In this document: in pieces, positions 1-24,909 of the stretch
Layout: each line of letters begins with the position of its first letter
Position numbering within the stretch: position 1 is the stretch's first letter
Origin: a virus
DNA: 30,586 bases
IMG/VR virus record: IMGVR_UViG_3300000232_000002
Coordinates: 28,977-59,562 of that record
Strand: one strand, 5' to 3'
Translations under genes and position numbers: made by a program
The notes under the pieces: model-generated
The model's input: the letters and a program-made list of their open reading frames with translations, nothing else
What the model was told of the DNA's origin: nothing
Databases searched by the model: none

Positions 1-986
1 TTAACACTAAAAGGTGTTTGTTGGAAGTGATTCAATGCAGTATTGAATGTCTTCTCTACTTTTAAATCATCTCTATTTCTTATCCTAGCATCTTCTCTAT
101 TGTTGTTAGTAGTTTCTACTACTGATGGTATTGTTAGTCTATTTGCATACTTAGCTATATCTACTGAATTAGCTAATGCTGATTTACTATATACATCTCT
201 CTCCTTTAGGGATACATGAGACATCATTATGTCTTTTAATGCTTTGATATGTCTCATAGGTACTTTACCCTCTATGGGATTGAATCTAATTACATCTCCT
301 TGTAGTATACTATCTACTCTATCTCCTTTCTTATCTACTGCCATATTACTACTGTAGTTACCCTCACCTATTGAGATAATACCTGTAGTTGCTAGATTAT
401 CTAAAGCTACTCTACCAATATGCATATAGATAGATTCTACCTTATCAGCATCCATAGCTGTAGTAGTATTGATTCTAAGGTTATGGGATACTGCTATCTT
501 TCTACCTAAGGATGATACTACTCTATCTACAGGGATGTTTGGTATACCTGTATTAGCATCAATCAATAGTTCTGTATCATTTGCATTGTAGTGGTTATTC
601 TCTACAATATTAGCCTGTGAAGCAATATTAGATACTATCTCATGTAAAGCATGGATAGAGTTTAATTGTTCATCTACGGTCAAGCTAGATGTATTAAATA
701 GGCTATTAGTAGAATCCACATTGATTACATTCTTTATTCTGTTTATGATATAAGACTTCTCATATACTTCATTAGTAGCTTCTATAAGCTTACTGATTGT
801 AGCTTCTTTACTAGCAGTACTTGTATTAGGTTTTAATCCTAATAGAGTATGTACCTCATCCAATGATAATGAATCAGTGTTGTAACGTAGTACTTGTCCA
901 CCTTTTAATTCTAATTTACTTTTTACTTTAATACTCTCTAAGATGCTTCTAAACTGTTCTGCATCTAATATACAATCTTTTGCCAT
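1..986 (-). CDS. N-terminal part of a large virion protein, candidate virion RNA polymerase (truncated by window edge)
   Basis: An open frame starts at an ATG at 986-984, preceded by AAAGGAGTAAGAAT, and stays open for 328 codons to the left edge, so the gene is incomplete here. The product begins MAKDCILDAEQF. It is mostly helical, acidic/polar and has no signal peptide or membrane segment. A stretch around residues 165-215 (SSLGRKIAVSHNLRIN, then MDADKVESIYMHIGRVAL) resembles, to my eye, helical regions upstream of the catalytic core of phage virion RNA polymerases, but no catalytic motif lies within the visible part. The main argument is position: in N4 the giant virion RNA polymerase gene is the last late gene, downstream of the capsid and internal-protein genes, as here. 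It could equally be another large ejected protein. The identity is inference; the reading frame is secure. Confidence 0.6.
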   Translation of the reverse strand, partial: MAKDCILDAEQFRSILESIKVKSKLELKGGQVLRYNTDSLSLDEVHTLLGLKPNTSTASKEATISKLIEATNEVYEKSYIINRIKNVINVDSTNSLFNTSSLTVDEQLNSIHALHEIVSNIASQANIVENNHYNANDTELLIDANTGIPNIPVDRVVSSLGRKIAVSHNLRINTTTAMDADKVESIYMHIGRVALDNLATTGIISIGEGNYSSNMAVDKKGDRVDSILQGDVIRFNPIEGKVPMRHIKALKDIMMSHVSLKERDVYSKSALANSVDIAKYANRLTIPSVVETTNNNREDARIRNRDDLKVEKTFNTALNHFQQTPFSV

Positions 987-998
987 ATTCTTACTCCT

Positions 999-3890
999 TT
1001 AACATAATAGGTCTGCTAGACCTAGCTTCTTAGCTATACTCTTAATCTCTTCATCTGTTAGTAGTTCTTCAGTAGTATTGGTAGTAAATTCAAATACACC
1101 ATCTACATCTAAACTATCTAACTTCTGTTGTTGTTCTACCTCTATAGGTGCATCTATGTTAGTAGAAGCACTATTGATATACTCTTCATTACTTGTTAAT
1201 ACCATCTTCTCTAATAGAGCTTCTGCTTTACCTAGATTAGTAGTATGTCCATTATCTATAACGTGTCTTAGGAAGTCTCTAACAGTAGCTGTAGTATTAG
1301 TATCAAGCTTACTACCAATACTTAACATACTGTCTATGAATGTATCTATACCTTTTATAGTAGTATCCATATCTGGATATGCTTTATCTAGCATACCTCT
1401 GTTTACTGCATCTATATAGTTTACTAATGACTCTTCATTTATCTTACTAGTAGCTTCAATATTACCTTGAGTATCACTACCTCTTAGTTTGATACCAAAG
1501 TCTTTCTCAATCCTACTTCTATTGTTCTTTATCCTAGTTATGTACTCTATGTTTGTTTTGTTCAGTTGATACTGTTCAGTACTAATATTACTAGGGTCTA
1601 TATTAGCATCTATTAGTTCCATTAGCTTCATATCTAAATCTTTAGTATTCATGTTAGATAGAGTACTAGGTAATGTGCTTTTATTAGTATCACTGTTTAG
1701 TATTAAGTCCATAGCTTTAGTCTGTTTAAGACCTCTTTCTAGTAAGCTATTAGCTACTCTAGCTTGTGTTGCTAGACTAGATGTGAACTTATTAGTATCA
1801 TGAGTAATAGCCATATCATTATTACTTACGTTTGCATACGTTAGATATGATGCAACATTCCTTGTATCACCATCTACTGTAGCTCCTATAATCTGCATAG
1901 CATTATTGTAGAACGCTCTCTTAGATTCATTATCCTCTACTTTGTATGTTTCTGATAATCCATTAATCTGTTCTACAAATATCTCTTTATCATGTATATT
2001 AGAGAATAGAGGTGTTATTTCATCTATTTCTTCTTGAATGTTGTAATTACCCTCTTTTAGCTTAGCTATAATACCTTTGACCATTACATCAGACAATTTA
2101 CCATAGATATTGTCCTTTAGATTAATGAACTCTTCTTCATCGATATTTTCTATATACTCTTGATTTAGTCTATTGTATGCACTAGATACAGATGCTCTAC
2201 CTAAATCAGTAGTTAAATTACCGTAGTCTACATTACCCTCTTCATCCATATTGTCTCTAACATCTTGCATAGCACGAGAGTTATTGTTTAGGTTGTTTGT
2301 AAGTACTTCTTTGAGTTGTTCATTGTCTACTCTTAACCCTGTTACTTCTTCTTCTGTCATAGACTCTCTTAGTTCAGAGTTATAAGGTTTAGCTAGTTTC
2401 TCCATTAGGAATTCAGTTCCTAGATAAGTACCTCTAGCTACGTGTGGTAAACTACCCATTTGTAATCCCATACCTGTACCCATGAATCCTGCAGTAACTA
2501 CTTTCTTCATGTTCTCTTCTCTAAAGATACTACTATACTTAGGATACTTATCAGTACCATACTCATGAGTAAGTACTTCTGCTGTCTCTTGTATAATCTC
2601 TTGACTTCCCTCAATAGCACCTTTAGCTACTATACCTCCTGCTACAGTTAATGCCTTAGTAGCAAAGCTAGATATACTAGATGGTTGTAATGTCTTAACT
2701 ACATCTATATAGTCTTGTTTACCACCTACTATTCTTCTAAAGGCTACTTTATCTAAAGCTCCCATAGCTATATTGGTAACTAGTCCTGCTCCTACTTCTG
2801 CAAAGCTAACATCACCATTATCATTGTTTAAAGCTCTCTTCTCCATATCTGTATTCGTCTTAGCACTAGCCCATGCTAATAGTCCTGCATTGTTTAAAGA
2901 GATGTTCTTAACAGCATTTAGAGTCTTACTAGCAGTACTAGCTATCTCTACTGCTTTAGCACCTTTGGCTATCCAGCCTAAGCCTAAGCCTATCTCTGCT
3001 ATATCTCCACTACTACTAGCCAATACTTCATTACCTGCTACTAACCCTGTTAGTAATGCTCCTGTATAATCTCCTGTCTTATATTGATGATATATTTCAT
3101 CAGTATCAAACTGTAGATGTCTACCATCTAGTCCTACTAACTTATTAGCACCCTCACTAGTCTTTGCTTTATCAAAGAATTCATTATTACCTATAGTTAC
3201 TGCATCAGCTATTAAATCTAATAACTCACTACCTACTCTTACTCCTGATGCTTGTACTCCTTTGAATACATCAGTAGTATAATCTACTACTCCTCTACCT
3301 TGTAGTTTAGAATCTCTTAATGCTCTAATAGCTTCATTGGTTTCACCTGTTATCTCATACTTATGTTGTTGAGCTTTACGATAGAGTTCTTGTCCTATAG
3401 CATCTAGCTTATTCGTAGGTACAGCTACACCCTCTGCTATTAGTTGATTTGATATACCTCTTACTTCAGTAACAGTTCTACCGTAATCATCAAATCCAGA
3501 AGCATTACCATGTAGCATACTAGAAGTAAGACTATTGGTATCTACTAATCGTTGTAAAGCTTCTTTACCTTTCTTACCCTCATTGAGCATAGTATTGAAG
3601 TCTACACCTAGATTACTAGCTATACTTCTAGCTCTCTCATTTAGAGTAGTCTCTGCAGTATCTATACCTGCTAGTCTAAACTTAGTATCAGTCTCACTAT
3701 CATATACAGTATCCCCATCTATTACAGTAAGAGGAGTACCATTACTACGATTACCTATATCATTTAATATAGCTCTACCTTTAGCGATACTATTGTTATA
3801 TACATCCTCTAGTGTTCTAGGCTTGTTCTCCTGCATGAATGCATCTACTTGCTTCTCTGTAGCATAAGCTTGTCTATCTGCTTCATTCAT
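999..3890 (-). CDS. Large internal virion (ejection) protein with N-terminal staphylococcal-nuclease-like domain
   Basis: 963 residues. Residues about 52-160 read as a thermonuclease (SNase/TNase) fold: VIDGDT at 56-61, FRLAGIDTAE at 71-80, GKEAL at 108-112, DDYGR at 134-138 and a final helix with LIAEGVAV. By comparison with Staphylococcus nuclease, catalytic Arg35, Glu43 and Arg87 correspond to R72, E80 and R138, and metal ligands Asp21, Asp40 and Thr41 to D60, D77 and T78; all are kept, only the Pro before the Glu is Ala. There is no signal peptide. Residues about 275-500 are Ala/Gly-rich with several hydrophobic stretches, then a long polar helical C-terminus. This layout, and its place between the capsid gene and the probable virion polymerase, suggest a protein packed in the head and ejected into the cell. 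The start overlaps the upstream gene by 8 bases (GAGG site, 9-base spacing). The nuclease call is strong; the ejection role is inferred. Confidence 0.85.
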   Translation of the reverse strand: MNEADRQAYATEKQVDAFMQENKPRTLEDVYNNSIAKGRAILNDIGNRSNGTPLTVIDGDTVYDSETDTKFRLAGIDTAETTLNERARSIASNLGVDFNTMLNEGKKGKEALQRLVDTNSLTSSMLHGNASGFDDYGRTVTEVRGISNQLIAEGVAVPTNKLDAIGQELYRKAQQHKYEITGETNEAIRALRDSKLQGRGVVDYTTDVFKGVQASGVRVGSELLDLIADAVTIGNNEFFDKAKTSEGANKLVGLDGRHLQFDTDEIYHQYKTGDYTGALLTGLVAGNEVLASSSGDIAEIGLGLGWIAKGAKAVEIASTASKTLNAVKNISLNNAGLLAWASAKTNTDMEKRALNNDNGDVSFAEVGAGLVTNIAMGALDKVAFRRIVGGKQDYIDVVKTLQPSSISSFATKALTVAGGIVAKGAIEGSQEIIQETAEVLTHEYGTDKYPKYSSIFREENMKKVVTAGFMGTGMGLQMGSLPHVARGTYLGTEFLMEKLAKPYNSELRESMTEEEVTGLRVDNEQLKEVLTNNLNNNSRAMQDVRDNMDEEGNVDYGNLTTDLGRASVSSAYNRLNQEYIENIDEEEFINLKDNIYGKLSDVMVKGIIAKLKEGNYNIQEEIDEITPLFSNIHDKEIFVEQINGLSETYKVEDNESKRAFYNNAMQIIGATVDGDTRNVASYLTYANVSNNDMAITHDTNKFTSSLATQARVANSLLERGLKQTKAMDLILNSDTNKSTLPSTLSNMNTKDLDMKLMELIDANIDPSNISTEQYQLNKTNIEYITRIKNNRSRIEKDFGIKLRGSDTQGNIEATSKINEESLVNYIDAVNRGMLDKAYPDMDTTIKGIDTFIDSMLSIGSKLDTNTTATVRDFLRHVIDNGHTTNLGKAEALLEKMVLTSNEEYINSASTNIDAPIEVEQQQKLDSLDVDGVFEFTTNTTEELLTDEEIKSIAKKLGLADLLC

Positions 3891-5361
3891 TAGAGTTTAC
3901 CTCATCTAGTAGTGTATCTTTATCTATACCATACTTAGCAAAACTATCCTCTATAACCTTTTGTGTATATGGTGGTTTTATATTAAGCTTCAATAGCTTA
4001 TTACTAACAGTTGCAGATACATTAGCTAATTGAATATCATCACTTCTGTCTATATTGAATACTTTAGATACAGCAACATTGAGTGCTATAGAGTTACTAG
4101 AAGCTATTCTATTGTTCTGTACTCTCTGTTCTTTACTCTTTGTTTTCTGTTCTTCATTCTTTAACTCAAGATTAGCAGTAGCTGTAATAGCATCTAATTC
4201 AGCTTTATTCTTTGCTAATGCTTTATCACTAAGTTTCTCATATTCAGTAAACAGTTTATTGAATGTCTTCTCATCATCTACTTTCATTAGTTCATCATAC
4301 ATCTTAGCAAGTTTCTCTTTATCAGTAGTAGGTTTATTTACCTTTGTGGTTGATAGCTCTTTACGATAGTCTACAGCTACCTTTTTAGCGTTGTTTACCT
4401 TATCTAAGGTATCAGCACCTATACTCTTCTGATTAGCTGTATAATCGCTATTTAACTGCTTTAAATACATACCATTCTCTTGTATCTTAGCTGTAAGTAG
4501 TTCTATCTCTTTAGGGTCTTTAGAATGAGCAATCTGTTTACCTATTGCAACATTCTCCTTAGTCTTAACAATACTATTAGCTTTATAGGTATTCTCTAGT
4601 TCTTTAAGACTATTAGCTTTATCACTATCTATAGTAGCAAGTTCCTTAGTTAAATTACCATCTACTATTTTAGAGATTGTCTTACTACTATACTTTGGAG
4701 TTATCGTAGTACCTACTGCTTGTTTAATCTCCATAACTTCAGTATTTGCATTTTCCTCTTCTTTGAGATTCTTAAGGTCTAATGCTCTACCCTCTAAAGC
4801 CATTTGTAGTTTAGTATTTGATAAGTCAGTATTTGCATCTCTATATTTTCTTTGACTATCAGTATCTAAACTTCTAAGTTGAGTATTGATAGCTCTATCT
4901 TCAATTTGACTACCTACATTAGCTTCATTTAAGCTCATACGTCTATTATTCATATCAATAGTATTAGCTCCAATAGCACTGTTAAGTTGATGGGTTTCTC
5001 TTCTCATATCTTGATTATCATCTAAGTAACCTACAGTCTTTTCAAGACTCTTAGCTCTTTGAATATTTAAATCAGTATTAGCTCTTAATCCCTCTAAGGT
5101 TATACTAGCTTTAGCAAATCTATCATGGTCGTAGTTATCAAACTTAGGTACTACATCCCCACTTACTATAGCTTCTAGCATCTTACCTGTATTCTCATCT
5201 CTCTCAAACTTGAACTTCTTTTGAGCTGTTAGTAATTTATCATCAAGATATATACTAGTAGGCTTAGCAATCTTCATGAGAGAGTTATTGAACTGTTCAG
5301 TTTCTGGAGCTAATGACCTAGTCTGTTGGAAGTGTGCATTATAGCTTACAGGTGATGCCAT
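3883..5361 (-). CDS. Coiled-coil internal virion protein (hypothetical)
   Basis: 492 residues, very rich in Lys, Glu, Asp, Asn and Leu, with long heptad-like stretches between about residues 60 and 430 (for example the region of KELENTYKANS) and no hydrophobic membrane segment or Cys-rich site. I recognise no enzymatic motif. It is preceded by AGGAGATACTACA at its ATG and overlaps the start of the nuclease-containing gene by 8 bases, which suggests coupled translation. Long coiled-coil proteins in this position, beside the membrane-segment proteins and before the candidate virion polymerase, are typical of podovirus internal core/ejection proteins. The role is inferred from position and composition only. 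Confidence 0.75.
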   Translation of the reverse strand: MASPVSYNAHFQQTRSLAPETEQFNNSLMKIAKPTSIYLDDKLLTAQKKFKFERDENTGKMLEAIVSGDVVPKFDNYDHDRFAKASITLEGLRANTDLNIQRAKSLEKTVGYLDDNQDMRRETHQLNSAIGANTIDMNNRRMSLNEANVGSQIEDRAINTQLRSLDTDSQRKYRDANTDLSNTKLQMALEGRALDLKNLKEEENANTEVMEIKQAVGTTITPKYSSKTISKIVDGNLTKELATIDSDKANSLKELENTYKANSIVKTKENVAIGKQIAHSKDPKEIELLTAKIQENGMYLKQLNSDYTANQKSIGADTLDKVNNAKKVAVDYRKELSTTKVNKPTTDKEKLAKMYDELMKVDDEKTFNKLFTEYEKLSDKALAKNKAELDAITATANLELKNEEQKTKSKEQRVQNNRIASSNSIALNVAVSKVFNIDRSDDIQLANVSATVSNKLLKLNIKPPYTQKVIEDSFAKYGIDKDTLLDEVNSNE

Positions 5362-5372
5362 TGTAGTATCTC

Positions 5373-5738
5373 CTATAAGCTTCTAGCGTGGTATTTCTTC
5401 TTATACTCATCACTATTTTGCATAGCAGAAATCTCTTCATCAGACTTACCTGATGCTTTCATTCTTCCTCCCATGATTCTATCAACATCAAAGTCATATG
5501 CTTTCTTAGCATTAGTACTGTTAATAATGTTACTAGCTCTAGCTTGAGCATTATTGCGTTTAGCTTCACTAAGTGATTGCCAATTAGTATATGCACCAAT
5601 AGCACTTAGTGCAGTGTTAACTACAGGCATAAATGCTCCTTTTTGTTCAATACCTGTATTCTTATCTACAGAACCAAACCAATTGAAGTCATCATCATCT
5701 CTCTTCTTGTATTTGTTAAATACATCATACTCACTCAT
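5373..5738 (-). CDS. Small hypothetical virion-module protein
   Basis: 121 residues, no family recognised. The N-terminus is polar and Asp-rich (YKKRDDDDFNWFG). A short, moderately hydrophobic Ala-rich helix (NTALSAIGAYTNW, about residues 40-52) follows, then a basic C-terminus ending KKKYHARSL. It has a clear AAGGATATAAG ribosome site, lies one base after the stop of the 689-residue gene and 11 bases before the coiled-coil gene, so it belongs to the same transcript. A short protein with one amphipathic helix among ejection proteins could be a minor core protein. The function is unknown. Confidence 0.7.
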   Translation of the reverse strand: MSEYDVFNKYKKRDDDDFNWFGSVDKNTGIEQKGAFMPVVNTALSAIGAYTNWQSLSEAKRNNAQARASNIINSTNAKKAYDFDVDRIMGGRMKASGKSDEEISAMQNSDEYKKKYHARSL

Positions 5739-5739
5739 C

Positions 5740-7809
5740 TTATATCCTTGTTAGTAAATTTACGTCTAAACTAGCTTCTATAGCTTTCTCTGTAAGCTCT
5801 ATAGGGCTAGTAGACATAAGTATTCTAGCATAAAACTCATTAGGTGATTCAATTGGAGTGTACTTAGCTACTATGTCTACTATCAGACTACTATCAGATT
5901 CATTGAATCCTTGTTGGGTATTTAGCTCATTGATGTATTCCATATACTCTGTATACTGTTTATGCATATCTGCATTGTCTTCTAATATCTTAACCATATC
6001 AACGTCTACTGTTGTATTAATATAGGTATTCACAGCGTTTACTATATGTAGAGCTGTATCTAGTGTACTAAGATTAGAGAAATCTACATTACCTGCATAC
6101 ATACCCACTACTACCAATGCTACTACTGCTATTACCCTTAGAAATGCATTATCTGTATGCTGAAATACCCACTTAATAGCATAGCTTATTGCTACAGATA
6201 TTATTATAGTTTCTGCAACTGCTATGATAGCAACAGATATAGGAGTACCTGCACCTAGTGTACTTATCTCAAATGCTATTGCTACTGCATATAAAGTTAT
6301 CTGTACTATAGTACCAAATGCTCCTGTTTCATACCAATGAATATATGTATCCTTATAGTACAGTACTACCATATGCATACTAAGGTCTATTAGATTGTAT
6401 CTCTCACTAAATCCCATCTTACTTAGGATAGCTTCTTCAAAGAATGGTAGACATATACTACCTTTGGTTTGAGTACCAAATGCTATATCAGCTACACTAT
6501 ATGTGGAAGAATGAGATTTATCTCCTTTCTGTACGTTCTGTATTGTTTTAAGTGATGAGACTCTATATGACTGTGTATGGTTTGGATATACTATACTATA
6601 CTCTAAGAAGTAATCATCTACAGGTAGGTATATAGTATCCCCATATACCTCATCAATGACAGTTATAAGCTTAGTACGAATATCAGCTATTTTATCTACA
6701 TAATAGATATTATCTGATTTATCATAGTATCCTATCTTTCTAACAAACGTAGGATTACTATAGTCAAGTGGAGTACCATTACCAATATGAACATACTCAA
6801 TATCCATTTGATGTACTGCACTAATTCTACTAATAGCTTCATTGGTACTGCTCATTAACTGTTCTTGTATTATGGATGAGTTTATTTTACCTATTCTATC
6901 AGTAATAGCACTAGTTCTATAATCTCGGTATAGCTTCTCTATTGTGTAGAATATAGCCTTATTGATAAGAGGTACATCTCTTTCTATGTTTAAACCAAAG
7001 TTAATGAAGATGTCATCAGAGTTAGCTAGTGTTTCAGCCATACTATTATCTTCATCATTGTTGGTATCTGTAAACTGATTAGCTATACTGTTATATATTC
7101 TTCTACCTAGGATGTCTTTAGACGTTGTATATATGGTATGTTCCTTAGTACCTTTAGCACTACCTTTTATCATAGAACCGTCTAATTTAATAGGTATACT
7201 AGGATATGTATATTCCCTATTGAGTATCTCTATATCTGATTGTTGTGTATGTATTTCATCTAGTCTATTTTCAGTATATAGAATACCTAAAGTACTAGTA
7301 GTATCAGTTATAGGTATTTTAACGTACAGAATACCTCCATAGTCCTCATAAACTACATACCAATAGGTAGAGTCATATGTACCAATTAAAGCTATAAAAT
7401 CCAATCCTTGAGGTGATTCTAGTGTGAATTCTGTACCCGTATAGTGATACATATAATCAGCATATTGGTTAGATAGATATGTCTGTAAAGGGTCAGTATA
7501 TGTATCAGTGACATAACTACTTAGAGTATTTCTAAATTGAGGATTATCTAAGGATTTACGATATAGGTCTTTAGATAGTCTAGTTTTACCTTTTAGTATG
7601 TCTTCTCTAACTTGAGTACTTATAGACTTACCACTATACATTTTGATTGTATTGAAGACTGTAAGTGGACTATTTAAAGAGGTTTCCTTACCTAGTGGTA
7701 ATGATGGGTATGTAGTATGTCCTACTGTTATGACGTGTTCTCCATGTATACCTAATACATCAGATATATCATTGAAGATTCTATCTCTACGTCTAGTCCA
7801 CCAACTCAT
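5740..7809 (-). CDS. Internal virion protein with central membrane-segment cluster
   Basis: 689 residues. The first about 490 residues are soluble and mixed alpha/beta, beginning MSWWTRRRDRIFNDI with a basic N-terminus. Residues about 495-567 hold three or so strongly hydrophobic segments (around GTIVQITLYAVAIAFEI, ISVAIIAVAETIIISVAI and IAVVALVVVGMYAG). A polar helical tail of about 120 residues follows. There is no signal peptide. Proteins of this build in podoviruses are usually packed in the head and inserted in the cell envelope during DNA entry, which would fit its neighbours. The gene starts 2 bases after the upstream stop; its ribosome site is weak (GGTATCTAACA), so it probably depends on coupling with the upstream gene. 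The exact role is inferred. Confidence 0.75.
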   Translation of the reverse strand: MSWWTRRRDRIFNDISDVLGIHGEHVITVGHTTYPSLPLGKETSLNSPLTVFNTIKMYSGKSISTQVREDILKGKTRLSKDLYRKSLDNPQFRNTLSSYVTDTYTDPLQTYLSNQYADYMYHYTGTEFTLESPQGLDFIALIGTYDSTYWYVVYEDYGGILYVKIPITDTTSTLGILYTENRLDEIHTQQSDIEILNREYTYPSIPIKLDGSMIKGSAKGTKEHTIYTTSKDILGRRIYNSIANQFTDTNNDEDNSMAETLANSDDIFINFGLNIERDVPLINKAIFYTIEKLYRDYRTSAITDRIGKINSSIIQEQLMSSTNEAISRISAVHQMDIEYVHIGNGTPLDYSNPTFVRKIGYYDKSDNIYYVDKIADIRTKLITVIDEVYGDTIYLPVDDYFLEYSIVYPNHTQSYRVSSLKTIQNVQKGDKSHSSTYSVADIAFGTQTKGSICLPFFEEAILSKMGFSERYNLIDLSMHMVVLYYKDTYIHWYETGAFGTIVQITLYAVAIAFEISTLGAGTPISVAIIAVAETIIISVAISYAIKWVFQHTDNAFLRVIAVVALVVVGMYAGNVDFSNLSTLDTALHIVNAVNTYINTTVDVDMVKILEDNADMHKQYTEYMEYINELNTQQGFNESDSSLIVDIVAKYTPIESPNEFYARILMSTSPIELTEKAIEASLDVNLLTRI

Positions 7810-9291: not shown

Positions 9292-10551
9292 CTATACTAG
9301 TTCTGCTACTACTTCCATTCTCATGATTCTCTCTGGACGTAAAGCCATGAAACCGTAGTACCATGATAACGCAGAGAAGCCTACTTTAGAGAATGGGTCT
9401 GATAATGTTCTACCTGATTGTTGCTTAGGAGCTTGGTCATAGTACTCAAACTTATTACTACCAGAATTACTATTCTTAAATGAAATAGTAGTATATGTCT
9501 CTGATGGTACACAAAGCATAGGGAATACATCAAATCTATGCTCACCTGAAGCATTGAGAGATGACCTATAACCATTAGGGTTGTTGTTAGCTACTAATGC
9601 TCCTTGAGCAGAGAATTGTACCATATCCTTACCTACTTTAATAACTCTATAACTACCTACTGCTCCATGTTCTCCATGAGCAATATTAGTTGCTGATGCA
9701 TATTGTCTTACTTCTGTATATGCTCTCTCATTGTGATAGTCTTTAAGCTTCATCAATTGAGGAATAACAGGAGTACCTACATATAGTAATCTAGCTTCAT
9801 TAATTGTAACAGTATCAGAGTATGTACTACCCTTAACTACTTTAGTATTGGTAGATGCATCTAAATCATCTAACATCAATGCTGAAGATACAATTGATGG
9901 ATAATCAACTACTGATGCTACTTCACCAACGTTACCTGTTAGTGTAGCTCTACTTGTAGCTTCTCCACCATAGAAGATAGCTCTAGCAGAGTTAATAAGG
10001 TCAATCTGTAGTCTATCTTCACATATCTTAGTAGCACCTCTCATTGCTTCTCTAACGTTGTGTTGATGTAATTCTGCATCTGTATCAAATTGTAAAGAAT
10101 CTTGTGTATAGATGTAGTGGAATCCAAATTCTTCAAATGAACCCTCTAGCTTAATACGCTTAAAGCTAACTCTGTTTACTTCTCCACCATACTCGGTTAG
10201 TTGTGGTTGAAACTTGAGAATAGCATTTACATCTCTACTAGACCCATACAAATTCCCATTAGCTATTCTAGCTCCTGAAGCATCTATACCTTGGTCATTA
10301 TCGTTTCTATCATCTAATAATGGTAGATATAAGTATCTAACTAGTTTCTTACCCATATGCTTAGGTGCTTCAATAGTAGATGCTGTTTGTGTAAACCACA
10401 TAGTAGGTGCAAGTTCAATCAATGCATCCTTTATGTAGAACTGTGTGTTAAATTGTTCAGCACCTACAGTAGAGTTTGTTCCATCCCCATAGTGTGCAGG
10501 ATTACTTGCAGTGTTTCTTAATGCAGTAATCTGTGCTTGTGTTAGTGCCAT
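9292..10551 (-). CDS. Major capsid protein (N4-gp56 family)
   Basis: 419 residues. It fits the N4-gp56 type of HK97-fold capsid protein: a short N-terminus (MALTQAQITALRN), then a region with QFYIKDALIELAP and MWFTQTAS, then GKKLVRYLYLPLLDD, corresponding to the family's pattern of a start helix, a hydrophobic-Gln segment and a Gly-Lys-aromatic beta strand. Length fits the family. No cleaved prohead peptide is evident. The ribosome site AAAGGAACTATT is good, and the gene directly follows the scaffold gene by 12 bases, the usual order. A stem-loop follows the stop. It forms the icosahedral shell. Identification rests on sequence pattern and on the scaffold/portal context. Confidence 0.85.
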   Translation of the reverse strand: MALTQAQITALRNTASNPAHYGDGTNSTVGAEQFNTQFYIKDALIELAPTMWFTQTASTIEAPKHMGKKLVRYLYLPLLDDRNDNDQGIDASGARIANGNLYGSSRDVNAILKFQPQLTEYGGEVNRVSFKRIKLEGSFEEFGFHYIYTQDSLQFDTDAELHQHNVREAMRGATKICEDRLQIDLINSARAIFYGGEATSRATLTGNVGEVASVVDYPSIVSSALMLDDLDASTNTKVVKGSTYSDTVTINEARLLYVGTPVIPQLMKLKDYHNERAYTEVRQYASATNIAHGEHGAVGSYRVIKVGKDMVQFSAQGALVANNNPNGYRSSLNASGEHRFDVFPMLCVPSETYTTISFKNSNSGSNKFEYYDQAPKQQSGRTLSDPFSKVGFSALSWYYGFMALRPERIMRMEVVAELV

Positions 10552-12241: not shown

Positions 12242-14158
12242 TTACTTAGTATCTTCTCCTGCAAACTTAGATAACCACTCTAACTCTTTTAAATCACCAC
12301 TCATACCTTTATCTTTAGCATTAGCCATTCTCTCTAATGCTTCTGCTTTCTTGAGTAGTATATCAGCTCTTAAACTCTCTAGTTCTAACTCTCTTAAAGC
12401 TTCTGTATGAGGGTCTGGTTGAGGTTTATAGTTCTCTATCTTATAAGCTAAATCCTCAATACCATTCAGTCTATTAATCTTAGCTAGTATAAGCTGTGTA
12501 ATATCAGTACCTATACTACTACCAATAGTCTGTAACATGAATGATAGTTGTTCTGCTTTACTAGCATTTAGTTCTGGAGTTGATATATTAATATTTACAC
12601 TAGCTAGTGATTGAAATTGAGTTCTCTTTAGTTTAACTTCTTCCTTACCTGTTATCTGCATAATATCAGTATCTTCTAAATACTCTATATTTAATCTAAT
12701 AACCTTTCTAGCTACTTTAGTAAGTCCTGAAGCTAATCTACGTAGTATGGACAATTCCCTCTTAGATACAGCATCCATAGCTCCTCTAACTGCTGTAGCA
12801 GTACTACCCATAGCATTATATGATATTCCTCTACCTCCACCAAAACCTACTACTCCTGATAGAGCTTCTGATTCTTTTTCATACTTATATGTAAAGTTCT
12901 CTATACTAGGGGGTAAATCTGGATAAGCTACAGTATGTACTGAACTACTAGCATTATATCCCTCATTAATATAACAGTGTTCTCCTCTCTCTAGCTTGTC
13001 TTGTTGTACTACATCAAATGCTCCTTTAGTAGCTATAGTTTGACCTGTAGCAGTTCTACTAAACGTATCTATAGTACCCCTAGCTATAGCAGATAATATC
13101 TCTTGATTGTCACTTAGTAGTTCAGCATCATTACTTCCATAGTTATCTGTAGTAGCTAAGTACTGTACTAATACAAATGGTTTCTCTTGTAATGGATATG
13201 GATTCTCTTCCATACGTATAATAGTATCTCCTACCCAAGCAATAACTACTTGTTCTACTACTCCATCACCATCAATATCATACTCTCCCCAATACTCATT
13301 TACTTTAATAGTCTTTCTTGGTAAGTCTGTTATTGCTACATCTATTAATAGTGTCTTACCATCATATGTAGTAGTACTAGGTATCTCTGCTGTTATATCT
13401 CCTAAACTAATATTACCTAGATTACTATATCTACCATCCTCTACTAATTCTGATAGTGTAGTAGTAACTTCATGTAGTATTCCTCTAGCATTAGACAAAT
13501 CTCCTCCACAACTAGGGTCAAAGTGTATATTACCTAATTCACATATTTCTATATTAGGAGAGTTCTTAACCTTATGTTGTATATCTACTACCATTACCTT
13601 ATTGAGCTTATCCTCTTTAGTTAATAATGACTTATTTGTATTTATAATATGAATACTCTCATCATACTCTGATATATGAATCTTCTTAGTTTCTGTTACG
13701 AATCTAATATCCCATCCTACTTTAAGTACTACACTACCTTGGTCACCTGCTTTACGTATGTATCTATTAATGAATCCTACTAAGTCCATCTCTTTAGTAA
13801 ATTGATGATTGAGTATCTGATTCATCTCTTCTACATCTTCTTCGTATATAGTAACTCCATCCAATTCAAACAGATTGTTGTTAGATAGGAAAGGTTCTTC
13901 CAATGATGGGTATCTCCATTCATTAGTCTTCTTAATTAACTTATGAACGATATTACTCTTATTAGATGGTAATCCTCTCAATGGTCTAGCATCTATATTC
14001 TCTTTCCACTTAGTTACCAATTGCATTTGTTGATTTGTATGGTACTGATAAGACTGTACTTCTAATCGTAGTTGGTCTAATGTTGGTGTATATAACCAAT
14101 TCTGTAATTTAGAATCATCCTTACTATACAACTCACTAAGTTGTTTATCCTGTATCAT
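12242..14158 (-). CDS. Portal protein
   Basis: 638 residues, in the range of podovirus portals. Portal-like features are: a helical N-terminus with a run of Trp/aromatic-rich segments; a mid region (IHFDPSCGGDLSNARGI, about residues 215-231) followed by TTLSELVEDGRY; a stem/crown-type region (QEILSAIARGTIDTFSRT) and GAMDAVSKRELSILRRL, like the long helix of portals; and a charged helical C-terminus. It forms the dodecameric ring through which terminase pumps DNA and to which the neck attaches. The start ATG overlaps the previous stop (ATGA). The order portal, scaffold, capsid is the standard head operon. Family assignment is by general pattern and context, not by a specific catalytic motif. 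Confidence 0.8.
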   Translation of the reverse strand: MIQDKQLSELYSKDDSKLQNWLYTPTLDQLRLEVQSYQYHTNQQMQLVTKWKENIDARPLRGLPSNKSNIVHKLIKKTNEWRYPSLEEPFLSNNNLFELDGVTIYEEDVEEMNQILNHQFTKEMDLVGFINRYIRKAGDQGSVVLKVGWDIRFVTETKKIHISEYDESIHIINTNKSLLTKEDKLNKVMVVDIQHKVKNSPNIEICELGNIHFDPSCGGDLSNARGILHEVTTTLSELVEDGRYSNLGNISLGDITAEIPSTTTYDGKTLLIDVAITDLPRKTIKVNEYWGEYDIDGDGVVEQVVIAWVGDTIIRMEENPYPLQEKPFVLVQYLATTDNYGSNDAELLSDNQEILSAIARGTIDTFSRTATGQTIATKGAFDVVQQDKLERGEHCYINEGYNASSSVHTVAYPDLPPSIENFTYKYEKESEALSGVVGFGGGRGISYNAMGSTATAVRGAMDAVSKRELSILRRLASGLTKVARKVIRLNIEYLEDTDIMQITGKEEVKLKRTQFQSLASVNINISTPELNASKAEQLSFMLQTIGSSIGTDITQLILAKINRLNGIEDLAYKIENYKPQPDPHTEALRELELESLRADILLKKAEALERMANAKDKGMSGDLKELEWLSKFAGEDTK

Positions 14159-14451
14159 TTTCTTACCTCCATTCTAATATCTTCTATTGTAGTATTCTGT
14201 CCATGTAATATATGCACTCTTAAGTAGTACATTCCTAATAGGTTAGTAGTTACTGCTGAAGATACGAATACTGTACTACCTACAATTGGAGCATTCTTAG
14301 CTACTACTACATCCTTACTAGGGTCTTTAACTATCTCATAGGATACCTGCATAGTAGATGCATCTACAGGACTACCTCTAAATGTAAGCTCTATAGTAGC
14401 ATCTATAGTCTCACCACGAATTATGTTTATCTCTGTACACTTACTGCTCAT
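14155..14451 (-). CDS. Small beta-rich protein, baseplate/fibre-attachment candidate
   Basis: 98 residues, predicted all-beta: INIIRGETIDATIEL, then RGSPVDASTMQVSYEIV, then a closing GMYYLRVHIL strand. The pattern (I.RG.T, a G.P.D turn, late G.Y strand) resembles small immunoglobulin-like or BppU N-terminal-type domains found beside receptor-binding proteins in phages. It starts inside the previous fibre-like gene (11-base overlap, GGAGATTAAGA site) and ends with an ATGA overlap with the portal start, so all three are translationally coupled. The function is inferred. Confidence 0.65.
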   Translation of the reverse strand: MSSKCTEINIIRGETIDATIELTFRGSPVDASTMQVSYEIVKDPSKDVVVAKNAPIVGSTVFVSSAVTTNLLGMYYLRVHILHGQNTTIEDIRMEVRK

Positions 14452-15286
14452 TCTTAATCTCCTTAATTTTAAGTATTATACTCTCTTTATTTATAACACA
14501 TCTAACCATGTCTACAGCCTCTGTAAGCGTTATATCCTTATTACAGGTAGCAACCATTAGGTTAGCTCTCCTAACCGATACACACTGCACTGTAGGCTTA
14601 CTAATAGATACTACTACTTTACTACCTATACCCTCTGTTATAGTTACTACTATAGCTTGTATGAAAGCTTCATCTGTTAATAATCTATTTAAGATTGTAT
14701 CATAATCAACTACTGCATCTCTACCATGAAGTGATGCTAACCATTGTATCTCATTCCCTATAAACCCATTTCTAACAGCTAAGAGATATGCAGATTCTCC
14801 TTGTCCTTTAAGAGACTCTAACCATTGTACTTGTGTTCCTATATAACCATTATCTACTGCAATCTGATATGCACTCTTACCATCAGTTGAGGTATTGAGT
14901 GTACATAGTTTCTCTACAATAAACTCAAATACTTCTTTAGTAGGTAATTGTAATAATTCCTCTACTGTACTTGCAGTACCTATAGTACATTGTGTAGTAT
15001 TCTCTACAGACACTGTAACTGTTATACCTGTACCTGTACTATTAATAGCATCACTTGTGAATATGGTAAATATGTTGTTAGGGTCAGTTAGTATGATTGT
15101 TTCATTGATAATACCTGTGTAGGTATTTACTAAAGTATCTCTGTTAAAGAGTTTTAAGAAGTCTTTGTTATGTTCTATAAATCCATCTATCTTTACACGT
15201 ACTTTAGGGGATACTACATCATAGAAGTGTGTATGACTGTAGTTAGGACTGTAATTATCAATATGCCATGTAATTGATGTACTCAT
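14441..15286 (-). CDS. Fibre-like protein with two SAY...WL.SL.G repeats
   Basis: 281 residues. Residues 136-161 and 163-188 are two copies of a 26-residue motif, GKSAYQIAVDNGYIG...QWLESLKG and GESAYLLAVRNGFIG...QWLASLHG. Such motifs are common in phage tail-fibre and other fibrous proteins, often beside collagen-like stretches. The N-terminal about 120 residues are beta-rich and would be the attachment part. The region after the repeats is a short helix and strands with three Cys. The ribosome site TATGGAG is moderate and an AAATTAAAC element precedes it. It may be a virion fibre or spike; binding specificity cannot be told. Confidence 0.7.
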   Translation of the reverse strand: MSTSITWHIDNYSPNYSHTHFYDVVSPKVRVKIDGFIEHNKDFLKLFNRDTLVNTYTGIINETIILTDPNNIFTIFTSDAINSTGTGITVTVSVENTTQCTIGTASTVEELLQLPTKEVFEFIVEKLCTLNTSTDGKSAYQIAVDNGYIGTQVQWLESLKGQGESAYLLAVRNGFIGNEIQWLASLHGRDAVVDYDTILNRLLTDEAFIQAIVVTITEGIGSKVVVSISKPTVQCVSVRRANLMVATCNKDITLTEAVDMVRCVINKESIILKIKEIKNEQ

Positions 15287-17145: not shown

Positions 17146-18171
17146 TTAGGTAAGTGGTTCTCCATCAAGGTTAGGAACTACTCCTACAACTCTTCCTGCA
17201 TCAAAGATTTTACTAACTACAAGGAAGTCTTCTGGATTACTTGGGAAACCTAATTCCCATAGGTCAGATACTCCTGTCATAGCATCAGTTAATTCAATAT
17301 ACTTAACCCTTGTATGATTACCTAAAGGAGCTATAAATGCAGTATCATGTAATCCTTGTCCTTGAACAGGTACTTCAACTAAATCATAGTTAACGTCTAA
17401 TAGTCTAGCAGTTATTGGTACAGAATGTGGATTACGTACTTCTACAGCATATTTTGTAATATCTTGATACCATACTCCCCAACCTGTTACTGTTGCTAGT
17501 ACCACTGGGTATAGTCTAAATGCTGATGTATCAATAGTAAGAGCAACAGGTTTAGTTGTGTGAACTACCATCAATACTACACTTAATTCACCCTCTACAG
17601 ATGCATCATAGAATGAAGTAGCAATATTCTTACCTTGGAATACATCTTCATTTCTTAATGTAACTTCTGCTTGAGTAGCTGATACAACTCTACAAGTAGC
17701 AGAGATAGCTTCACCACTAAGTGATGTAGGTACTTTAGCAATGATTGTGTAATCTGAAGCAGATGCAAAACCATAAGCTGAAACATCTACTAAGAACTTA
17801 CCGTTAGGAGATGACTGTACATCGGTTCTAAAAGCATTTGTAGTCTTTCTTCTATCTAACTCTCTCTCAAGTACTCTAAAGGCTTCTAGGAACGTTTCTG
17901 AACCTGCTACACCTACTTGTAACTTGATGATGTTTTTGATTGAATCACTAAGACCATCAATGTCTACTTCTGAACCTGCTTTAATGTTATTAACTGTAGT
18001 AATAATCTCATTGAGTTTACTCTCTGCACCATCACTAAAGATTGTTGTAATATCTTTGTTGTCTCTTATATTTCCAATAATGGAGTTAAGAAGATTTTCT
18101 GTAGTGTCAGTCAACGTCATAGGTGAAAGTATGATTGTTGATGCATCTAAGTCTGCTGATGTAATTGGCAT
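17146..18171 (-). CDS. Virion surface/fibre protein, paralogue 3 (shared N-terminal module plus unique C-terminus)
   Basis: 341 residues. Residues 1 to about 215 match the other two paralogues: start MPITSADLDASTIILSP, a helical segment with NEIITTVNNI and VDIDGLSDSIKNIIKLQ, FRVLERELDRRK, SSPNGKFLVDVSAYGF, then SFYDASVEGELSVVLMVVHT. The remaining about 125 residues are unique and beta-rich (VVLATVTGWGVWYQDI, VEVRNPHSVPITARLLDV). The common part would be a shared docking or oligomerising module and the C-terminus a displayed domain. No known family is recognised. ACAAAGGACAAAAAT precedes the ATG. Two hairpins follow the stop. Confidence 0.75.
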   Translation of the reverse strand: MPITSADLDASTIILSPMTLTDTTENLLNSIIGNIRDNKDITTIFSDGAESKLNEIITTVNNIKAGSEVDIDGLSDSIKNIIKLQVGVAGSETFLEAFRVLERELDRRKTTNAFRTDVQSSPNGKFLVDVSAYGFASASDYTIIAKVPTSLSGEAISATCRVVSATQAEVTLRNEDVFQGKNIATSFYDASVEGELSVVLMVVHTTKPVALTIDTSAFRLYPVVLATVTGWGVWYQDITKYAVEVRNPHSVPITARLLDVNYDLVEVPVQGQGLHDTAFIAPLGNHTRVKYIELTDAMTGVSDLWELGFPSNPEDFLVVSKIFDAGRVVGVVPNLDGEPLT

Positions 18172-18205
18172 ATTTTTGTCCTTTGTTTTTGTTATTATAG
18201 ATAGC

Positions 18206-18219
18206 TATACCAAGGTATA
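18206..18219. other. Palindrome TATACC AA GGTATA between paralogues 2 and 3
   Basis: A 14-base near-perfect palindrome (two 6-base arms, 2-base centre) in the 72-base gap. The very short loop disfavours a hairpin with all six pairs, so it may instead be a protein-binding site or a small stem with a 4-base loop. Confidence 0.3.
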
Positions 18220-18243
18220 ACTACTATGTTGGGTTTGGAGAGA

Positions 18244-18918
18244 TTAAGCTCCAAATGTTCTTTCGTCACCATCTACTTCTGTAATACTAGCTGTAATAGG
18301 TCTAGCAGTCTTAACTACAATTACTGTAAGCATAACCATACCTTTAACAGATGCATCATAGAAAGATTCAGCATTCTCTACAAATGAAAGTCTATCTTTA
18401 TCTCTCAATGTAATAGTACCACTTGTTAATGTGTCTTTGAAGAACGTAGCATCCAGTGCTTGTCCATTAGGAGCAGTTACAGGTTGAACGAATACTTCAT
18501 ATTCATTATGAGATGTGAAACCAAAGTTTGATAAGTCTAAAGCAACTCTACCATTAGGAGATGAACGTACTCCCATAGTAAATGCATCAGTCTCTTTTCT
18601 ACCATTAATAGCTGTAAACAGCTTAGTAAATGCTCCTACGAATGAATCATTACCTGCTTCAGATTCTAAGAATAGCATAGCTTGAATTTTAGCTTCTAAT
18701 GCATCAATATCTACAGATGTACCTGATTGTAAATCATTAACTGCATCAATAACTTCATTCATCTTGTCTTCTGTATCATGTGATACATCACCAATTAGGT
18801 TTCTGTTAGCTTGAATGTTGTTGATGATGTTACTGATTAATGTCACTTGTCTGTCTGTAAGTGACATAGGGTCTAATACAAATGTATTACCTGAAAAGTC
18901 TGCGTTTGAAATTGACAT
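18244..18918 (-). CDS. Virion surface/fibre protein, paralogue 2 (module alone)
   Basis: 224 residues from the ATG at 18918-18916. The frame is open to an earlier ATG at 18951, but the internal start is chosen because it has AAAGGACATATA in front and aligns with the starts of both paralogues (MSISNADFSGNTFVLDP against MAIQNIDLSGNTFTLTP). It is essentially the shared module alone: helical NEVIDAVNDLQSG with VDIDALEAKIQAML, FTKLFTAINGRKET, SSPNGRVALDLSNFGF, ESFYDASVKGMVMLT, and the end ITEVDGDERTFGA. It could be a cap, a linker or a minimal form of the fibre family. No outside homologue is recognised. Confidence 0.75.
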   Translation of the reverse strand: MSISNADFSGNTFVLDPMSLTDRQVTLISNIINNIQANRNLIGDVSHDTEDKMNEVIDAVNDLQSGTSVDIDALEAKIQAMLFLESEAGNDSFVGAFTKLFTAINGRKETDAFTMGVRSSPNGRVALDLSNFGFTSHNEYEVFVQPVTAPNGQALDATFFKDTLTSGTITLRDKDRLSFVENAESFYDASVKGMVMLTVIVVKTARPITASITEVDGDERTFGA

Positions 18919-19007
18919 TATATGTCCTTTGAATAGGGATTTTAGGGACAATCAGTATTACTACTAATCATCCCCAGAAGAAGTATATCTTATATGCTCT
19001 TAAAACT

Positions 19008-20465
19008 CTATGCTAAAGCAACAATAACCTTACCATCATCATCTAAACACAATTTCATAGAAGTTACTCCAGATTCAATAGGTTTACTATTTGCACCATT
19101 ACTTACTGAACCAGATGAAGTTACTGTATCAGGAGTTGTTGGTAAATATGCCCCTAACTCATCAAATTTCATAAAGATAGTACCGCTAAAACTATCAACT
19201 TTAGTTGACTCTGCTGTAATACCGTTAAAGTTAAATCCACTATTTGCTAATGCTCCTTCAGTAGTGAAGTTAGGGTTAGACATAGTAATTAGTATCGCAT
19301 TTGAATCTGAATAACTAGATGCTGTGTAAGTATATCCATTAATGGTAAGTCTACTAGTATCAGGTATTGAAACTTCTGTTTTAGTAATTGGGTATGCAGA
19401 TGGATAAGTTAATGGATTAGCATTAACTACTTTTGAAAATACATCCATTACTACACCTTTTGTAGGTGTTGTATAACCTGTTACATTAATACCTTTACCT
19501 AATATGTTAAATGTAAATGGATATGAGTTAATCATATTAGCTGTAGCACCATTACCATCATACATTTCAATTACCAAATCTGGTGATGATGGCATAGCTT
19601 CATTAATAGTATTGTAGTAGAGTCTATTAGTCTCTACATCATACGTAATGTAAGGCTCATTATCATTTCTCATACCTACTGCTTGATAAGAGTTAAAGTA
19701 TCCTTTAAATACTGTAGTAAATGAACCATTAGCATTCTTAAGTAATAGCTCTATCTCATTAAGTCCATCTTCATTCTTATATGCTGTAGTATGAGGAATA
19801 ATAAAACCCTCATAACTATTAGGGTCATTAAGATTAAGACCTAATTCTAAAGCACTACCAACAACTATAGGTAACCCTATAACTCCATTGGTTATAGGAA
19901 TGAATGTACTGTTTATATTTTTTATAGTAGCATTAAGATAAATAGAAGCATGATTATGTTCCATAATGATAGGCATAGTAGAAGAACTACCTACAGTAAT
20001 AGTACCATCATTGATATTAGATTGAACCTTAGTAACAATTCTATTATCAATTGAACCGTTATTAACAAATTGGTTCAAACTGCTAGAGATTATAAAACCA
20101 AGAGAACCATTAGCAAAAGTATTAATCTCATTAGTTACTCTATCTCCAATACTATCAATACCTACCTTATCAATAGCCAAAGACCACCAATTAGCCATAC
20201 TATACTTAGTACAATATGCATCAGAGTAAATGTCATACACATTCCCTCTACCCACTCCCTCTGTAATAGCTACTTCTGATACTCTTCTATCAAGCATCTT
20301 AGCTACTACCTCTACATCTGGATTACTCTCTTGTAATGCATTTACTTGTCCTCTAAAGTAGTCTAATGCTCCTTGTAGGGTATAAGTACTATCACTCTTA
20401 ACACCTACCTCTAAGATAAGCTTTCTTGTAGAGGTAAGTAATTCTTGAACTGTTGAAATTGCCAT
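19008..20465 (-). CDS. Hypothetical virion protein, beta-rich, between the paralogues
   Basis: 485 residues, not related to the flanking paralogues by eye. The first about 130 residues are helical (MAISTVQELLTSTRKLILEVG, split by polar turns). From about 150 onwards the protein is beta-rich with many Asn, Thr, Ser and Gly and few charges, typical of phage fibres or appendages, including a region with ITNGVIGLPIVVGSALELGL. The C-terminus (SMKLCLDDDGKVIVALA) resembles a terminal strand. It lies 11 bases after paralogue 1, with ribosome site AAAAGGATAAAGA. A receptor-binding or appendage role is possible but unproven. Confidence 0.7.
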   Translation of the reverse strand: MAISTVQELLTSTRKLILEVGVKSDSTYTLQGALDYFRGQVNALQESNPDVEVVAKMLDRRVSEVAITEGVGRGNVYDIYSDAYCTKYSMANWWSLAIDKVGIDSIGDRVTNEINTFANGSLGFIISSSLNQFVNNGSIDNRIVTKVQSNINDGTITVGSSSTMPIIMEHNHASIYLNATIKNINSTFIPITNGVIGLPIVVGSALELGLNLNDPNSYEGFIIPHTTAYKNEDGLNEIELLLKNANGSFTTVFKGYFNSYQAVGMRNDNEPYITYDVETNRLYYNTINEAMPSSPDLVIEMYDGNGATANMINSYPFTFNILGKGINVTGYTTPTKGVVMDVFSKVVNANPLTYPSAYPITKTEVSIPDTSRLTINGYTYTASSYSDSNAILITMSNPNFTTEGALANSGFNFNGITAESTKVDSFSGTIFMKFDELGAYLPTTPDTVTSSGSVSNGANSKPIESGVTSMKLCLDDDGKVIVALA

Positions 20466-20476
20466 TCTTTATCCTT

Positions 20477-21715
20477 TTAGATTTCTGATTGATTAGGGTC
20501 TGCTACTATTGTAAATATCTTAGATTTACTGACAGACTCAAGGTTAGAAGTAGATGTAACTGTAAACACAATAGTATGTTGAGTACCATCTTTAGCTATT
20601 GTATTAAATTCAGTAGTTGTACCTACACCATTAGCATCTAATACTATAGGAGTATATACTGAAGTACCATCCATAGTCATTTTCAATGTATAACCACTCA
20701 TACCTACGTTACCTGTAAATGTTACGTTACCACTATTAGCTACAGCTACCATGTTTACCATAGGTTGTGGGTATGGAGATACATAGTTAAATGTTCTACT
20801 AGGAGCATTAACAGTATTTACAGCCTTATATACAGTGATACTACCATTCTCTTTAAGTACTGCATTAGATACAATAGACATAGCATCTGTACCATCTACA
20901 GCAGTAATAGTAAAGCTTACGTTAGGGTCTGTATCTACCATAGTAATTACTGTACCTGTTAAAGTACCTTGTAATCCATTAAATGTATACATACCACTAG
21001 CATCTACAGTTGAGTTAACTAATACTACAGGAGCTATTAGAGGTTCACCAAACTCATCTAAATCACCATCAATCTCTGTAATACTACCAAAGATAGGAGT
21101 AGCAGTTTTAGATAGGAGTAGAGTCAATTGTACCTTATTGTCTGTAGCATTTGCTGTGAAGAATGAGTTAGCATTAGTAGCAAAAGAGATATGGTCATTA
21201 CTTCTAATAGTAACCACTCCTGAAGTAGCTGATACTTTCTCAAATGTAGCTGATAGGTTTTTCAACCCTTTAGTTCTGATGTTACACATAACCTCATAAT
21301 CATTGATAGAACTGAATCCATATTGAGTTAAGTCAATTCCTACTTTACCCTCTACTGTACTAGTAACATCAAGAGTCCATACTAGAATCTCTTTACGAGA
21401 GTTTAACTCATCAAAGAGTGTTCTAAACAAACCTACAAAGGTATTATCACCTAATTCACTCTGTAAGTTAACGATAGCTTGAATCTTTTGTTGTAGTTCA
21501 CCTAAGTCTACGGTTAATCCAGAATTGATAGCATTAACTGCACCAATTACTTCGTTTACTTTAGTTTGAGCTTTCTGTGACATCTGTTCAAATGTTGTCT
21601 TATCTTGTGCAATGTTAGTAATAATTGACTCTAATAGTTGTTGAGCTGTATCAGTCATAACCATAGGTGTCAATGTAAACGTATTACCAGATAAGTCAAT
21701 GTTTTGTATTGCCAT
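20477..21715 (-). CDS. Virion surface/fibre protein, paralogue 1 (shared module plus Ig-like C-terminus)
   Basis: 412 residues. Residues 1 to about 225 are the shared module: MAIQNIDLSGNTFTLTP, NEVIGAVNAINSG, VDLGELQQKIQAIVNLQ, FRTLFDELNSRKE, KVGIDLTQYGF, then ITEIDGDLDEFGEP. Residues about 230-405 look like two immunoglobulin-like beta-sandwich domains: a first with SGMYTFNGLQGTLTGT and SFTITAVDG, a second with GNVTFTGNVGMSGYTLKM and QHTIVFTVTST. Ig-like domains are frequent on phage capsid decoration and tail proteins and bind weakly to carbohydrates. The ATG follows AATAAGGAAACACT. It is the first of the family in the transcript, after a stem-loop. Confidence 0.75.
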   Translation of the reverse strand: MAIQNIDLSGNTFTLTPMVMTDTAQQLLESIITNIAQDKTTFEQMSQKAQTKVNEVIGAVNAINSGLTVDLGELQQKIQAIVNLQSELGDNTFVGLFRTLFDELNSRKEILVWTLDVTSTVEGKVGIDLTQYGFSSINDYEVMCNIRTKGLKNLSATFEKVSATSGVVTIRSNDHISFATNANSFFTANATDNKVQLTLLLSKTATPIFGSITEIDGDLDEFGEPLIAPVVLVNSTVDASGMYTFNGLQGTLTGTVITMVDTDPNVSFTITAVDGTDAMSIVSNAVLKENGSITVYKAVNTVNAPSRTFNYVSPYPQPMVNMVAVANSGNVTFTGNVGMSGYTLKMTMDGTSVYTPIVLDANGVGTTTEFNTIAKDGTQHTIVFTVTSTSNLESVSKSKIFTIVADPNQSEI

Positions 21716-21738
21716 AGTGTTTCCTTATTTTTAAAATA

Positions 21739-21758
21739 TGAGAGCTTTCACACTCTCA
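21739..21758 (-). terminator. Stem-loop after the 881-residue gene, followed by a U-rich run
   Basis: TGAGAG (21739-21744) pairs with CTCTCA (21753-21758) around an 8-base loop. On the transcript it is followed by UAUUUUAAAAAU. This is the most terminator-like of the stem-loops in the window, although the stem is short. It separates the tail operon from the paralogue family. Confidence 0.4.
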
Positions 21759-21781
21759 ATAGTATATTACTACAATAAGGC

Positions 21782-24427: not shown

Positions 24428-24909
24428 CTTAATCTACTCCTAATGTCATTATGACCTTTATATACACCATAGCTATCTATCTTACCACTTACTTGTAAAG
24501 CTCTTGTACTAGGCTTATTACACTTAAGCATCACTCTACCATACTGTCCTGCTAAAGGGTCAACAATACTCAATCCTGCAGTTACTACATATACATTATC
24601 ATTCCCATCATCCACTATACTACCTGTGGTAGTAGTAGCTACTAAGGTATCAGTCTTTATGTTTATTACTGCACCTAGTGGTATATGTCTTTCATATGGT
24701 GATAATTTCATCTCTCTATGTGCATGAGGTATATACCCATAGGTTGGAAGTGGAAAACCTACCTTAGTATACTTAATCCTAGTTATCTGCTTACCTAACC
24801 CTGTAGTACAGTTTAAGTCTACATAACCATTACAATCAACTACTGCATTATCCATAGTAAACTCTAGTGAGTTCACTGAAGCACTATTTACATCTGTTAT
24901 ACTACTCAA
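24424..24909 (-). CDS. Hypothetical small virion protein (TTG start)
   Basis: 161 residues. The reading frame begins at TTG, in a TTGA overlap with the previous stop, with AAAGG 8 bases before it; the next in-frame ATG comes 18 codons later and would cut into a conserved-looking strand. It is beta-rich (VVDCNGYVDLNCT, VTAGLSIVDPLAGQYG) with an Arg-rich C-terminus (NDIRSRLR). There is an ATGA overlap with the next gene. Tight coupling on both sides suggests fixed amounts with its neighbours, for instance a neck or tail component. No family is recognised. Confidence 0.7.
   Translation of the reverse strand: MSSITDVNSASVNSLEFTMDNAVVDCNGYVDLNCTTGLGKQITRIKYTKVGFPLPTYGYIPHAHREMKLSPYERHIPLGAVINIKTDTLVATTTTGSIVDDGNDNVYVVTAGLSIVDPLAGQYGRVMLKCNKPSTRALQVSGKIDSYGVYKGHNDIRSRLR

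Follow-up and report, generated by a model that had tools for sequence, protein, structure and literature searches.

We analyzed a stretch of 30,586 nucleotides (hereafter, the window; positions 28,977 to 59,562 of IMG/VR record IMGVR_UViG_3300000232_000002), which covers the minus-strand late region of an uncultured virus (record length 59,753 bases). The ejection-cassette, capsid, and portal genes described below are encoded on the minus strand. The virus carries a portal protein resembling N4 gp59 (12242-14158; PF23899 (SU10_portal), E 1e-92; phrog_1216, E 7e-142) that is ~35% identical to Schitoviridae portals, a major capsid protein resembling N4 gp56 (9292-10551; phrog_1357, E 7.6e-86), a gp57-like protein matching phrog_2120, and a 689-aa gp53-like protein (5740-7809), assigned by phrog_2220 (E 4.8e-22) and gene order, whose N4 counterpart is the tail plug. 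Based on these matches, together with those to phrog_2130, phrog_2050, and the terminase, sequence comparison identifies the virus as an N4-like (Schitoviridae-type) phage; the N4-type portal, capsid, and late gene order were all found in it. A DNA-level search of 50,697 phage records returned no match. In contrast to the remaining late region, the tail and appendage region (17146-26513) holds large ORFs (341, 235, 485, 412, 881, and 535 aa) without a PHROG match at E 0.01. In a 281-aa ORF (14441-15286), a short repeat-rich part (residues ~130-220), collagen-like by eye, matched several PHROG families of tail fibres. Beyond the window, a helicase-like ORF of the same genome (L004:9928-12084) appears, by eye only, to contain an intein-like insert within its Walker A motif (GCGK/EQPLTSL...FTTTHN/TSTIF).

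The ejection cassette reads gp53-like, gp52-like, gp51-like, a 963-aa protein with a staphylococcal nuclease (SNase) domain, and virion RNA polymerase (vRNAP), compared with gp53, gp52, gp51, and gp50 (the vRNAP, 3,500 aa) in N4. The 121-aa gp52-like protein (5373-5738), a proposed outer-membrane channel, was assigned by position and by similarity to the proteins at the same place in two uncultured contigs (z 5.8 to G040 and 4.8 to L134). The 492-aa gp51-like protein (3883-5361), a proposed periplasmic tunnel, was assigned by position and weak similarity to N4 gp51 (z 4.7). Only the best pairs in the gp51 and gp52 comparisons reached z 4.7-5.8, most pairs being not significant, and hhalign found no match between the gp51 group and the gp51s of N4-like phages; both identities, drawn from gene order and weak similarity, are putative. 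No separate inhibitor gene was found in the contiguous cassette.

The vRNAP ORF begins 12 nt downstream of the 963-aa ORF. Its N-terminal 328 residues lie in the window (3-986), and the full ORF of 1968 aa (L005:5057-10963), recognized by phrog_2206, relatives, and motifs, extends beyond it. The C-terminus matches phrog_2206 (E 2.3e-12), and the protein matches the vRNAPs of Alteromonas phages R22Y and PT11-V19 across much of its length, sharing with them candidate polymerase motifs around D558, K644-TMT-Y653, and H948-D949. When five vRNAPs were aligned, the motif-B lysine fell in one column in all five; the alignment at motifs A and C was not clean, so these two assignments are tentative. 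A vRNAP alignment used as bait retrieved no relatives. The position of the motif-B lysine, 644 in this protein as against 1667 in N4, indicates that the ORF lacks the ~1,000 N-terminal residues corresponding to the N-terminal domain (NTD) of N4 gp50. The vRNAP is unusually short, 1,968 aa compared with ~3,500 aa for the giant vRNAP of N4, with the putative NTD on a separate chain.

The 963-aa protein (999-3890) sits between gp51 and the polymerase core, where the NTD of gp50 is found in N4. The vRNAP ORF here begins where the N4 polymerase core begins, which places the 963-aa protein in the position of the NTD. This order, and the split seen by comparison with N4, PT11-V19, and R22Y, suggests that it stands in for a split-off gp50 NTD. 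The two share their place in the cassette after gp51 and beside the polymerase core, but here the protein is separate and fronted by an SNase, which is not detectable in N4. The body of the protein (residues 161-963; 999-3410) may be NTD-like, since a group profile of the window body, PT11-V19, and R22Y matched the fused N4-like NTDs with a score of 43.8 (shuffle maximum 21.0). The window body alone scored 19.2 against N4-like NTDs, not significant against a shuffle maximum of 21.1. The 963-aa protein had no phrog_2206 match, full-length searches against phages, the PDB, and viral contigs gave no matches, and no relative turned up among phages or in IMG/VR when the SNase piece was searched by sequence on its own. 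The initial annotation had described an apparent ejection protein with hydrophobic Ala/Gly-rich segments typical of internal virion proteins. Gene order and relatives back the ejection role, with the refinement that the protein occupies the position of a split-off vRNAP NTD and is not a generic internal virion protein. The hydrophobic segments do occur, although mean hydropathy exceeds 1.2 in only a single 21-residue span (406-426).

Residues 52-160 of this protein (3411-3737; VIDGDTV...FRLAGIDTAET...DDYGR) are, by profile comparison and structural modelling, an SNase domain. Such a domain, with its active site preserved, had been proposed in the initial annotation, whose named residues are all present: R72, E80, and R138 correspond to SNase catalytic R35, E43, and R87, and D60, D77, and T78 to the Ca ligands D21, D40, and T41. 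The active-site stretch (3477-3719) runs from D58 (codon 3717-3719) to R138 (3477-3479). Pfam SNase (PF00565) matched the domain piece at 21.0 bits (cut-off 21; E 4.9e-4) and a slightly longer piece at 20.7 bits, and missed the domain in the whole 963-aa protein; the score just at the curated cut-off and the miss on the whole protein mark it as divergent. A profile of 12 SNases built without the window sequence agreed with Pfam, scoring the window domain at 71.5, 25 SD above 100 shuffles (mean 12.5 +/- 2.3, maximum 19.7; P 1.1e-11). The structure prediction suggested with the initial annotation was also run. AlphaFold2 with a 13-sequence alignment modelled the domain at pLDDT 79 and pTM 0.69 (from the single sequence the model was poor, pLDDT 51), and in a Foldseek search against the PDB every top match was staphylococcal nuclease (probability 0.99-1.00, best E 1.9e-4), with TM values of only 0.37-0.47 that make the model family-consistent but not precise. 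A Klebsiella plasmid thermonuclease (L013) served as a yardstick and was excluded from the alignments and HMMs. A hand-made SNase motif search, which gave 0 shuffled matches, was set aside as evidence because the motif had been composed after the sequence was seen.

Compared with staphylococcal nuclease and other PF00565 thermonucleases, the domain keeps the OB-type fold, according to the profile and structure searches, and all catalytic and metal residues, but it carries a ~13-residue insert after the DTAET motif, has a shortened hairpin after YGR, and forms part of a putative phage ejection protein. The SNase family is well known, and phages frequently encode it as a gene by itself; most other phage SNases differ from this one in that respect.

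To characterize relatives, a portal alignment was used to retrieve 80 N4-like loci, whose ejection cassettes were read, and one further search was made. In 18 further uncultured contigs, several of them near-duplicates (G005, G006, G007, G009, G023, G025, L132-L138, L140-L143, and L145), the protein that follows gp51 has an SNase-like N-terminus. The relatives have two layouts, in which the SNase-like domain is either split from the vRNAP, as in the window, or N-terminal on the vRNAP polypeptide. In split relatives, the SNase-like N-terminus belongs to a separate protein (693-1,298 aa), and the next ORF matches the vRNAP profile; this match starts at position 931 in L145, 929 in L135, and 493 in L144, and L111 matches too. 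The fused layout is seen in L131, where residues 181-2215 of a single ORF match positions 22-1577 of the vRNAP profile (E 2.3e-253). The domains that share a chain, as candidate effector domains of a polyvalent protein, are the SNase and the NTD-like body in the window, and the SNase-like domain and the vRNAP in the L131 ORF. The domain, the active-site residues, the gene position, and the architecture kept in relatives are all directly observed.

The initial annotation had also called for a check of relatives, among which essentially only the active-site residues proved invariant. Across 15 distinct sequences with a mean pairwise identity of 36%, the only invariant gap-free columns were M1, D58, D60, D77, E80, R138, and P158. 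Five of these (D58, D60, D77, E80, and R138) correspond to D19, D21, D40, E43, and R87 of SNase, and their invariance at such low identity points to selection for catalysis and not for the mere fold. Each of the aligned N-termini also has an Arg 5-13 residues before D77 that is compatible with R35 by eye, in no single column, and the glycine of the DGD motif is replaced in many relatives. The sequence closest to the window domain is that of L145 (TIDGDT...LDTAET...HARSIAATRGL...DKYGREVAE), at 24% identity.

The N-termini of the relatives outside the window are too divergent for Pfam, which gave no match to them. A profile of these N-termini scored 31.9 against the SNase profile (shuffle maximum 15.0), and the window domain scored 26.4 against the N-terminal profile (shuffle maximum 18.5). 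The window SNase and the G005 protein showed no significant similarity when aligned as a pair; the case for kinship is carried by the profile comparison and by later relatives such as L145. The window domain scored higher against ordinary SNases (71.4) than against the other N-terminal domains (26.4), and so it and the domains of its relatives may have been gained independently at the same place.

A second type of fusion was found in two uncultured N4-like contigs, G034 and G040, whose gp51-like protein ends C-terminally in a canonical SNase (L093:19883-21847 and L108:8560-11007). PF00565 matched these fusions in the genome search at 75.6 bits (G034) and 60 bits (G040), and the G034 protein at 71.6 bits. 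In the G034 SNase T41 is replaced by Ala and the YGR motif reads YAGR, while the G040 SNase keeps YGR. The two gp51 SNases resemble one another and not the N-terminal family, so judging by sequence the SNase was probably gained at least twice in N4-like ejection cassettes. Another N4-like group carries small free-standing SNase genes, located upstream of the portal by a few kb (L023:6088-6642, L034, L035, L044:5632-6129, L075:82-492, and L090:6895-7497). We considered whether these genes of six other N4-like contigs represent the same phenomenon and dropped the idea, as both position and subfamily differ.

Neither ejection-protein fusion was found in a cultivated N4-like phage by tblastn with the proteins of the window, L129, L145, and G034. 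The Alteromonas phages vB_AmeP_PT11-V19 and vB_AmeP-R22Y have the same two-chain split, with a separate protein of 1,000 and 1,008 aa, respectively, directly upstream of a ~2,080-aa vRNAP. However, both are without an SNase, and the window SNase aligns to a gap in them. As these are the closest cultivated relatives, the SNase is not essential for this type of ejection. That the domain was lost from these two phages and not simply never present was dropped as a proposal, because the data cannot tell which. Iyer et al. (2017; PMC5512222) described N4-like RNA polymerase polyvalent proteins fused to peptidase, ART, lysozyme, and predicted BECR-type RNase domains, and suggested that other nucleases within injected polyvalent proteins attack host DNA. 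The arrangement in the window resembles these systems in joining effector and nuclease domains to a presumably injected RNA polymerase; it differs in that the SNase lies ahead of the NTD, possibly on a chain of its own. Neither SNase nor staphylococcal nuclease nor thermonuclease is mentioned in the main text of that paper (PMC5512222). Within the open-access literature searched, we found no relevant report linking SNase with N4-like phages or with ejection.

SNases are Ca2+-dependent, and cytosolic free Ca2+ is low. According to a 2025 preprint on N4 (PMC12633501), gp52 is the outer-membrane channel, gp51 is the periplasmic tunnel, and gp50, the vRNAP, is packed and injected. In the model put forward there, the gp50 NTD, which is thought to bind membranes, associates with the C-terminus of gp51; together they make up the inner-membrane part, tethering the polymerase. 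The ejected chain, according to this proposal, is molten inside the capsid and regains its fold in the host (PMC12633501). By analogy, we lean towards the view that the 963-aa protein is an injected, Ca2+-controlled nuclease at the inner-membrane end of the ejectosome, standing in for the gp50 NTD and cutting near the entry site. The virion would contain it along with gp51, gp52, and the vRNAP; it would exit through the tail and lodge beside gp51 at the inner-membrane end, as proposed for the N4 NTD. The SNase would be silent in the virion because it is unfolded; it would refold at the membrane and cut non-specifically around the entry site, and low free Ca2+ would restrain it in the cytosol. 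The leading candidates for its target would be host DNA or RNA at the entry site, or rival DNA. We infer packaging, injection, nuclease activity, Ca2+ control, and target from the features above. A nuclease tethered at the inner-membrane mouth is favoured because both types of SNase fusion map to the proposed contact between the gp51 C-terminus and the gp50 NTD. The wider proposal, that N4-type ejectosomes have been armed at least twice with an SNase at this contact, and hence inject a membrane-tethered nuclease with the polymerase to remove or break down nucleic acid where entry takes place, is one to which we give slightly less than even credence.

Other readings of the domain were weighed against this one. 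The injected nuclease might attack host DNA or RNA across the whole cytoplasm, well past the entry site, for take-over or nucleotide supply. Non-specific cutting of DNA and RNA by SNases and the conserved active site would fit such an attack, but an SNase normally requires far more Ca2+ than is present in the cytosol, and the incoming phage DNA shares that compartment. Even with the precedent suggested for other injected polyvalent-protein nuclease domains (PMC5512222), we regard cytoplasm-wide attack as unlikely. It appears less probable still that the domain binds nucleic acid without the need to cut, for example by holding the genome end or guiding DNA to the vRNAP, as the catalytic carboxylates and R138 are kept while almost all else varies. 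The adjoining DNA-dependent polymerase and the replaced DGD glycine would suit a binding role, for which eukaryotic Tudor-SN proteins, with SNase folds able to bind rather than cut, offer a precedent.

The nuclease could instead be directed at nucleic acid of the phage itself, for example to nick or trim early transcripts or the end of the incoming genome, in keeping with its tie to the vRNAP, the first enzyme acting on the entering genome. SNases have no known sequence specificity, however, and PT11-V19 and R22Y run the same split vRNAP without an SNase, and we find this reading quite improbable. We give least weight, and very little, to the idea that the 963-aa protein is not ejected and that its nuclease is made late and acts within the producing cell. 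The split window protein alone lacks significant similarity to known ejection proteins, which would leave room for this idea, but fused relatives carry the domain on the vRNAP chain, which is packed and injected in N4 (PMC12633501), and the gp51 fusions point to the same place.

The N4 vRNAP NTD has no resolved structure (PMC12633501), and a naturally occurring fusion between this domain and a small, well-understood enzyme offers a handle on where the NTD goes and on what happens at the mouth of the ejectosome. If the proposed tethered nuclease is correct, injecting a nuclease beside the polymerase would be an unusual first strike on host nucleic acid, or on rivals or defences, and would raise the question of how the phage DNA is spared.
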